A DNA stretch of 32,202 nucleotides from Alphaproteobacteria bacterium (GTDB lineage Bacteria > Pseudomonadota > Alphaproteobacteria > Micavibrionales > UBA2020), in contig JAUXOC010000095.1 of assembly GCA_030682495.1 (NCBI GenBank), positions 1-32,202 on the forward strand, in the 5' to 3' direction. Position numbers and translations under genes: made by a program. Positions within the stretch are counted from its first letter, which is position 1, and each line of letters begins with the position of its first letter. Below are positions 65 to 13,873 of the stretch, piece after piece. The notes under the pieces were generated by a model. It ran no database searches. It had not been told where the DNA came from and was given only the letters and a program-made list of their open reading frames with translations.

Positions 65-241
65 AAAGTTTGGCGATTATCCCGTTGAAGTACGTACCGC
101 GTCATACCGGCGCAGGCCGGTATCCAGTGCGCGCAGCGCCAGGTATAGATCAAGGCCTTTCGGCCTTGGGCTGGATACCGGCCTGCGCCGGTATGACAAA
201 AAAGTAGAATGCGTACTTCAACGGGATAATCGCCTAAAGTT
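65..241. mobile_element. MITE-like nested inverted-repeat element
   Basis: A 165-bp element (71-235) is bounded by inverted arms of 23 perfectly matched bases (72-94 against 212-234). Inside lies a second perfect inverted repeat of 27 bp (101-127 against 171-197), and at the centre a small hairpin (151-157 against 162-168). The element is flanked by a direct repeat AAAGTT at 65-70 and 236-241, which looks like a target-site duplication. There is no reading frame for a transposase. It lies three bases beyond the stop codon of the leftward hydrolase gene, so a transcript of that gene would read into it and fold strongly. Seen: the repeats. Inferred: a non-autonomous transposable element or REP/BIME-type unit; it may also serve as a 3' mRNA hairpin. 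Confidence 0.75.
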
Positions 242-243
242 AT

Positions 244-906
244 TTAGCGCGACGGGCGACGCGGCGGCCGTTTGGGCAGCGGAGCGTCTTTTTTGAAATC
301 GCTAATGTCTTCGAGCAGGTCGAGCGCATTGACAAAATGCACGCCGCGCTTTTCCATCTTTTCGAGCTGCTCGGCTGTTTTGTTGCGGTCGTTGTCGTTA
401 TCATTGCCGGTGAGATCACGCAGCAAGACGACTTCGAACCCGTGGTCGCGCGCATCCATCACGGTTTTGAAGACGCAGGCGTTGAGATTAAATCCGCAGG
501 CAATCAGCGTTTTACGTTTGTCGGCCTTGAGGATTTTTTTGATATCGCTGCCACGGAAAGCGCTGTCGTGGTCTTTGGCGATCAGCTTGTCATCGGGATT
601 GGGGCGGAAAATATAAAAGTCGATGTCTTCCGGCTTTTTTTCAAAGTCCGAAAAATAAACCACATAGGCAGGCAGGCCCGCAGCGCGAAAGGCGGGGATC
701 AGGCTATTGATACGGCGCGTGACTTGCTGCGTTTCGCGGTTGCCGCGGCCTTGTGCGGGGTCGGCAAATTCTTTTTGCACATCAATCACCAGCAGCGCGG
801 CATCGCCTTTGGCGATGTCGAGTTTGATTTTTGTTTCTGCCTGCACTTCGGGCTGGAAGAAATCCAGCACGCGCTTCAGCTTGGCTTTGAAAATATCGAT
901 ATCCAT
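244..906 (-). CDS. Isochorismatase-family cysteine hydrolase
   Basis: A 220-residue protein of the isochorismatase-like fold, whose members hydrolyse amides or enol ethers (nicotinamidase, isochorismatase, N-carbamoyl hydrolases). The triad is visible: Asp42 in LLVIDVQKEF, Lys111 in the segment before DSAFRGS, and Cys144 in GFNLNACVFKTV, followed by the usual helix and strand (DARDHGFEVVLLRD). The first 30 residues are an unconserved-looking extension, and the tail ends in a basic, proline-rich stretch (KRPPRRPSR). The ATG at 906 is preferred because GGGG lies six bases upstream; a TTG two codons earlier would sit directly on that site. A good promoter lies just upstream. The substrate cannot be read from the sequence, and no siderophore genes are nearby. 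Confidence 0.88.
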   Translation of the reverse strand: MDIDIFKAKLKRVLDFFQPEVQAETKIKLDIAKGDAALLVIDVQKEFADPAQGRGNRETQQVTRRINSLIPAFRAAGLPAYVVYFSDFEKKPEDIDFYIFRPNPDDKLIAKDHDSAFRGSDIKKILKADKRKTLIACGFNLNACVFKTVMDARDHGFEVVLLRDLTGNDNDNDRNKTAEQLEKMEKRGVHFVNALDLLEDISDFKKDAPLPKRPPRRPSR

Positions 907-929
907 GAACAACCCCGGTCAGGGTTTAA

Positions 930-12904: not shown

Positions 12905-13804
12905 ATGGCCACAGAAACAGTTATTACCATTGTCGCGGGCGATAGCGGCGGCCTGACCGCCGCGCACGAAAGCCGGCTGGCGGCCGAGGTCAAAAGCATC
13001 GGCGTGGACAGTTTGCGCGCTGACTGGCTGGGGGATGGATGCGCCCTTGACCTGATCCTGAGCGGGAATAATACCGAACTGGCATCCCGCCTGCGCCAAA
13101 AATTACAAAATTTTGGTCCTTTTGATATTTTTATTCAACCTCTCGACGAGAACCGCCGCAAGGGGCTCTTGCTGGCCGATATGGACGCGACGATGGTGGA
13201 GGGCGAAACACTGGACGATCTGGCGGCGCACCTGAACCTCAAAGACAAAATCGCCCCCATCACGGCGCAGGCCATGCGCGGGGAGATCGATTTTGCCGAG
13301 GCCTTGAAAATGCGAGTCGGGCTACTCAAAGGCCTGCCAGTTTCGGCGCTGTTCGAAACGCTGGACGGCCTGCACTATTCAAAAGGCGCGCAGACGTTGG
13401 TGAAAACCATGAACCGTTTCGACGCTAAATGCGTTTTGATTTCGGGCGGGTTTGATATTTTTACGCGCCATGTCGCGGGTGTGCTGGGGTTTTACCGCAA
13501 TATCGGCAATCGCCTTGGCATTCAAGACGACAAGTTGACGGGCGATGTCGAGCTGCCGATTGTCGATAAAGACACCAAGCGCCGTACACTGGCCGAAGAG
13601 GCGCAAAAGCTGAACCTGCCGCCCGCGCGCACCATGGCCGTGGGGGACGGCGCCAACGATATCCCGATGCTGCAAGCCGCAGGCGTCGGCGTTGGTTATT
13701 TTGGCAAGCCTGCGGTGCAGGAAGCCACGCCGCATCAGGTGCGCCATAGCGACCTGACGGCGCTGTTGTATATGCAGGGATACCGCAAAAACTTTTTCGC
13801 GTGA
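12905..13804 (+). CDS. serB: Phosphoserine phosphatase
   Basis: HAD-family phosphatase that releases serine from phosphoserine, the last step of the pathway. It has 299 residues. An N-terminal region of about 80 residues looks like the ACT-like domain common in SerB. The catalytic domain has motif I ADMDATM, with nucleophile D92 and acid D94. It also has EGETLDDLA, motif II LISGGFDIF at 178-186, and motif III AVGDGANDIPML at 245-256. Motif I carries Ala where most SerB proteins have Ser (DMDST), a minor change outside the catalytic residues. The ATG has AGGA very close upstream. A strong terminator follows the stop. Confidence 0.95.
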   Translation: MATETVITIVAGDSGGLTAAHESRLAAEVKSIGVDSLRADWLGDGCALDLILSGNNTELASRLRQKLQNFGPFDIFIQPLDENRRKGLLLADMDATMVEGETLDDLAAHLNLKDKIAPITAQAMRGEIDFAEALKMRVGLLKGLPVSALFETLDGLHYSKGAQTLVKTMNRFDAKCVLISGGFDIFTRHVAGVLGFYRNIGNRLGIQDDKLTGDVELPIVDKDTKRRTLAEEAQKLNLPPARTMAVGDGANDIPMLQAAGVGVGYFGKPAVQEATPHQVRHSDLTALLYMQGYRKNFFA

Positions 13805-13819
13805 GATATCAGACAAAAT

Positions 13820-13853
13820 AAAAAAAGCCGGCTGTCGTATGCCGGCTTTTTTT
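13820..13853. terminator. Bidirectional intrinsic terminator between serB and ydbL
   Basis: A stem AGCCGGC (13826-13832) pairs with GCCGGCT (13841-13847) around an eight-base loop. It is flanked by A-runs on the left and T-runs on the right, so it works as an intrinsic terminator in both directions. It sits 16 bases after the serB stop and about 20 bases after the stop of the convergent ydbL. Confidence 0.92.
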
Positions 13854-13873
13854 GTTGAGGGGGCGATGCCAGA

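Follow-up and report, generated by a model that had tools for sequence, protein, structure and literature searches.

A probable IS1595-ended MITE with a CGTC-1-type REP dimer as cargo in an alphaproteobacterial genome

Close to one end of an alphaproteobacterial contig, several inverted repeats lie one inside the other between short direct repeats, which raises the question whether they make up a mobile element and, if so, which enzyme moves it and where the palindromes at its core come from. The whole stretch of DNA analysed, referred to as the window, spans 32,202 nucleotides and is contig C74 of G000, the window's genome (2.52 Mb in 109 contigs, 99% complete). For comparison we used two congeners, G001 and G002, and a relative from the same family, G010. 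Bases 1–141 of the window also form, without any difference, the end of contig C34, from which the left neighbouring gene was read. The element measures 163 bp (72–234), is without protein-coding content and sits between the 3' end of an isochorismatase-domain gene and the 5' side of a dUTPase gene; it would belong to the 3' untranslated region of the former. Its parts and neighbours are:

Start 25 bases before the window (on C34), minus strand: dUTPase gene, left neighbour
64–71, no strand: left target duplication CAAAGTTT, 8 bp, equal to the right copy at 6 of 8 positions
72–94, plus strand: left terminal inverted repeat (TIR) GGCGATTATCCCGTTGAAGTACG, 23 bp, IS1595-type end
95–100, no strand: left linker TACCGC, short
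101–127, plus strand: left CGTC-1-type REP with tag (C)GTC, 8-bp stem ATACCGGC/GCCGGTAT, loop GCAG and tail CCAG
128–170, no strand: spacer between the two REPs, containing two small hairpins
About 128–140: spacer hairpin 1, GCGC-type
151–157/162–168: spacer hairpin 2, CAAGGCC/GGCCTTG, a perfect central 7-bp stem
171–197, minus strand: right CGTC-1-type REP, inverted
198–211, no strand: right linker AAAAAAGTAGAATG, long, also present in other copies
212–234, minus strand: right TIR, 23 bp
235–242, no strand: right target duplication TAAAGTTA, 8 bp
244–912, minus strand: isochorismatase-domain gene, the stop codon of which (244–246) adjoins the right duplication

The nested inverted repeat described in the original prediction is real: the outer arms (72–94/212–234) are perfect over 23 bp, the inner arms (101–127/171–197) over 27 bp and the central arms over 7 bp. 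The linkers flanking the REP dimer are unequal (95–100 vs 198–211). As a single strand the element folds at −122.1 kcal/mol in comparison to a mean of −54.4 for shuffled sequences (z −14.7), with none of 200 shuffles reaching so low a value. The whole 32-kb window has just three inverted pairs that are 16 nt or longer and lie within 400 nt, two of which are the arms of the element. Fold and scarcity of inverted pairs both argue that the structure is not due to chance. Farther along the window we noticed a terminator-like inverted repeat at 13817–13856 (arms of 16 nt, loop of 8 nt), which follows an ORF at 12905–13804. No Rfam family came close to its gathering score; matches to Ms1 and to two microRNA models lay far below and were attributed to chance similarity of hairpins.

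We determined the number of copies by searching G000 with the TIR pattern allowing up to three mismatches. This gave 30 matches (0 for the reversed control pattern), which represent 18 loci once arms were paired and duplicates at contig ends were merged (C34=C74 and C52=C12, merged by us), so that copies with conserved outer arms are found genome-wide as had been expected. Thirteen of the loci have both arms; these copies span 86–186 bp and contain no transposase gene. Together with C45c, which was found by BLAST, they form the set of 14 two-armed copies in which target duplications were counted. Kept out of this count were copies truncated at contig ends (C38, C109, C81) and copies with eroded arms (C8a, C80, C38a, C11, C103, C27b, C85a). 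One copy (L034, about 1501–1660; C56:5097–5258 in G000) is enclosed by another inverted repeat, AACCGCGAATGGACGCGGATAAACGCGAAT and its near-complement, which is missing at that locus in both congeners and is possibly a second mobile repeat.

Element boundaries were fixed from the arms, independently of the flanking repeats. With a duplication length of 8 bp, 94 of 112 positions match over the 14 copies; permuted partners match at a mean of 60.0 positions and none of 100,000 permutations reached 94. A copy's own flanks agree at 7 or 8 of 8 positions in 9/14 pairs in comparison to 8/182 cross pairs. The score is 8/8 in six copies, 7/8 in three and 6/8 in three including the window copy, and the duplication fails in two (C105, 3/8; C45c, 4/8), so 12 of 14 copies are flanked by their own direct repeat at 6/8 or better. 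Position by position, the 8 bases beside the GG..CC ends match in 9–12 of 13 copies, and the bases immediately beyond match in 0/13 on either side. Targets are AT-rich, the perfect duplications being AACGGTTA, TATATTTA, TTATTTTA, TAAAAGAA, AAAATTTA and AAACTTAA. In the window, the AAAGTT repeats at 65–70 and 236–241 had been read as a 6-bp target duplication; the duplication holds, the length does not, as these are the inner 6 bp of CAAAGTTT/TAAAGTTA. The right AAAGTT indeed ends two bases before a stop codon, with bases 242–243 as the sole gap to the isochorismatase-like gene.

We also looked for empty sites by searching the flanks of 4 of 13 prepared loci (C74, C56, C105, C45a) in G001 and G002. 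All four loci are present in both congeners and the element is absent from each of them, as the original prediction had anticipated for relatives. For C74 and C45a the congener alignment runs across the junction; at C45a the congeners read TAATTTTA where G000 has TTATTTTA twice. Because the intergenic region of the congeners is shorter at C105 and C56, the exact footprint is unreadable there. Shared TIRs in dispersed copies, a target duplication, small size without a transposase and empty sites, four features by which a MITE is recognized, are therefore found here.

The exact 20-base end motif had no match among 84,980 other public genomes (own genome excluded), thus no close autonomous parent was found. 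A relaxed 19-base motif occurs at 72 loci in public genomes. An inverted partner is located 0.6–2.8 kb away at 12 of them when up to three mismatches are allowed and at 9 with up to two (0 for the reversed pattern at up to two); viral contigs gave four matches. Two of the partnered loci, L142 and L176, show no duplication (0/8 and 2/8) and were left out of the Pfam set. When the ten TIR-bounded elements of this set were searched with Pfam and NCBIfam, all ten were found to encode an IS1595-family transposase (NF033547 10/10, PF12760 10/10, PF12762 9/10, the exception containing an assembly gap). A perfect 8-bp duplication flanks nine of them and the remaining one scores 6/8; 8-bp duplications are stated for the IS1595 family in the accessible part of an earlier paper (PMC8101967). 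MITE and IS1595 ends have GGYGATTATCCCNTTGA in common and differ in the following base: IS ends mostly read GGYGATTATCCCCTTGAC and MITE ends GGYGATTATCCCNTTGAAG (TTGAC vs TTGAA). IS1595 transposases are present in 33 of 142 genomes of the window's order, and two elements of this order, L196 and L200, have ends of the MITE kind (in each, one end has 1 and the other 3 mismatches out of 17) together with perfect 8-bp duplications.

Beside the transposase, the full IS1595-type elements carry, as passenger genes, at least one extra ORF of 158–427 aa (L133, L135, L138, L139, L141, L148, L154, L162 and L163; also L132). Seven of these ORFs were searched and had no Pfam match; among eight ORFs analyzed with PADLOC there was one weak match, PDC-M14B in L139 (E 1.8e-4).

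A transposase with matching ends, as called for by the original prediction, was thus detected, but in genomes other than G000. Although the G000 assembly is 99% complete, IS1595 transposases (PF12762) were detected in none of G000, G001 and G002, which counts against an IS1595 driver and suggests that the parent has been lost, is unassembled or resides in another strain. G010 was considered as a source: it has five IS1595 matches, and the three checked for inverted repeats (L090–L092) are without MITE-type ends, two of them ending in GGGGCTGT-type repeats. G010 also holds lone TIR-like GGTGATTATCCC[AT]TTGATGTA motifs following AT-rich sequence (L088:1501-1523 and L089:1501-1523). These have no inverted partner on their contigs, which leaves G010 parentage unsupported. 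The copies with their own duplications, the empty sites and the IS1595 elements with matching ends support the MITE reading, and the ends point to an IS1595 transposase as the enzyme that probably moves the element.

Within this shell each inner arm is itself a tagged palindrome, composed of (C)GTC, ATACCGGC, GCAG, GCCGGTAT and CCAG. Bases 100–127 and 171–198 agree with the description of CGTC-1 REPs: a CGTC or TGTC tag, an 8-bp stem starting with AT, a 4-base loop and a CCA tail. The CGTC-1 family has been reported from the alphaproteobacterium Micavibrio, and the accessible text of the same paper describes CGTC REPs as having no dedicated transposase and as possibly moved by a wide range of transposases (PMC3733652). 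At up to two mismatches G000 contains 48 REP matches (including contig-end duplicates) and the two congeners contain 35 and 20; across the family, 12 of 17 genomes, with G000 among them, have such matches. Dimers of the same spacer type also occur shell-less: C79b and C86b in G000 have no detectable arms, nor have 5 of the 6 congener dimers examined. For other CGTC dimers of relatives 17 regions were fetched, 16 of which contain the dimer. Of these 16, 14 lack an outer inverted repeat above chance level and two have one (p 0.0 and 0.03), which argues against shells being the rule for REP dimers in relatives. As had been proposed, one repeat family is indeed nested in another, with REP dimers both inside the TIR shell and free-standing.

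Most likely an IS1595-type MITE took up a REP dimer, which then spread along with it. We prefer capture over birth inside the MITE because similar dimers occur shell-less in G000 and in the congeners. Birth inside the MITE, with shell-less dimers being old copies that have eroded ends, seems doubtful to us, although a gradient of arm erosion does exist in G000 (C11, C80, C38a, C27b, C85a, borderline C103, and C48). Likewise, a dimer in G002 (C106) has a right flank similar to the MITE linker (p 0.013), which would fit a loss of the shell, and the accessible text on QMITE2 shows its authors taking REP-only copies as truncated MITEs (PMC5896051). However, the end motif is absent from the congeners at up to two mismatches, yet these hold the 35 and 20 REP matches; the shell-less majority among the further dimers of relatives speaks against it as well, as does the frequent occurrence in the family of REP types that differ in sequence. 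Capture of the dimer is therefore the reading we follow below.

Two further explanations were considered. An inverted REP pair with a spacer resembles REPINs, which favors a REPIN- or BIME-like array moved by a RAYT (Y1 transposase) with the outer arms as part of the REP system. We consider this highly improbable: a Y1 transposase (PF01797) was found in none of G000, G001 and G002, no CGTC REP occurs in the flanks fetched for the eight Y1 loci of the family, and 8-bp duplications and GG..CC ends are not known as traits of Y1 enzymes. The very stable fold, the perfect 23-bp arms and the location of at least four copies between convergent genes (C56, C61, C105 and C45b, judged from open reading frames) would also suit a selected RNA element, a terminator or mRNA-stabilising hairpin at the 3' end of the isochorismatase-like gene. 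Such a role appears unlikely, since copies adjoin unrelated genes, relatives keep the same genes without the element, and a position at gene ends is also left by purifying selection on a transposon. An RNA role and MITE identity are not mutually exclusive.

Taken together, the element is very probably a non-autonomous IS1595-ended MITE with a pre-existing CGTC-1 REP dimer as cargo. An IS1595 DDE transposase supplied in trans would cut at the GG..CC ends and insert the element into an AT-rich 8-bp target, which would thereby be duplicated. The cargo would be a prior inverted CGTC-1 REP dimer (GTCATACCGGC-loop-GCCGGTATCCAG, spacer and inverse) rather than what is left of a transposase gene, and in this lineage would have spread together with the MITE shell. 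Once inserted, the element may have its palindromic core inverted or collapsed to a single hairpin.

The copies indeed differ in their cores. Judged by the unequal linkers, 4 of 12 armed dimers (C56, C105, C11, C38a) have the opposite orientation, which is what recombination between inverted REPs would produce. Armed copies C27, C86 and C45c have a single 26-bp hairpin instead of the dimer, and armed copies C45a, C45b, C70 and C79 a hairpin with a new tip. At an orthologous site of the two congeners with nearly identical flanks (L075:1440-1680 and L079:1432-1592), G002 C106 contains the dimer and G001 C81 a single 26-bp hairpin. This is the same kind of difference as among the copies. As to the tips, a longer REP hairpin with a AGCATGCTTTGCATGCGGGGCATGCT-type tip in place of the 4-base loop was noted in L033, L046, L053 and L058, and the same type of tip in the left REP of L035 and the right REPs of L020 and L258; it looks as if hairpin tips had been swapped.

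The perfect arms of the window copy had been taken to suggest recent movement. This was not confirmed: C74 is the only one of 14 copies with perfect 23-bp arms and its duplication has two mismatches, while copies with perfect duplications have 1–12 arm mismatches. Because the C74 duplication has decayed (6/8), its perfect arms are no sign of recency and are better explained by correction between the arms or by a symmetric source copy. In 11 ungapped copies (C27, C79 and C37 were dropped for gaps) the arms differ by a mean of 3.45 mismatches within a copy in comparison to 4.25 when permuted, with 1,967 of 100,000 permutations as low, which hints weakly at arm correction within copies.

One may speculate that the system forms a hitchhiking cycle, in which an IS1595-type MITE takes up a REP dimer, amplifies it, then loses its ends and seeds free-standing CGTC REPs; we hold this to be possible rather than probable. 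If so, the window element would be the captured stage of the cycle and a concrete case of the suggestion, made in the accessible text of PMC3733652, that CGTC elements could be mobilised by other transposases. For the spread of CGTC REPs, described there as without dedicated transposase, the element family offers a specific, testable route: a REP dimer carried in a transposon shell whose transposase family can be named. The copies further represent a natural series of rearranged palindromes at defined sites, comprising dimer, inverted core, single hairpin and new tip.

REP-carrying MITEs as such are already known, and the nearest precedent is QMITE2 of Coxiella burnetii; an IS1595-type MITE that contains a CGTC REP dimer has no report in the literature searched, which was partly accessible and left subscription journals mostly outside. 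According to the accessible text (PMC5896051), QMITE2 resembles our element in being a 150–190-bp MITE with TIRs and a REP inside, in being flanked by direct repeats (7–9 bp in section 8, 7–11 nt in the abstract) and in having shorter REP-only copies in the same genome. It differs by its GTAG REP and its gammaproteobacterial host, and that text names no driver. Our element, in contrast, has a CGTC-1 dimer, IS1595-type ends and fixed 8-bp duplications, and its shell-less dimers are also found in congeners without such ends. With the IS1595 family it shares ends starting with GGYGATTATCCC and 8-bp duplications, but it contains no transposase gene and is 86–186 bp long in comparison to 1.8–2.7 kb. 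The CGTC-1 dimers of H. neapolitanus lie inside 41-bp palindromes that are treated as target palindromes in the accessible text of PMC3733652. CGTC-1 REPs as described there have the CGTC tag, the 8-bp AT-starting stem, the 4-base loop, the CCA tail and the inverted dimers of our core, whereas here the dimer would move inside a transposon.
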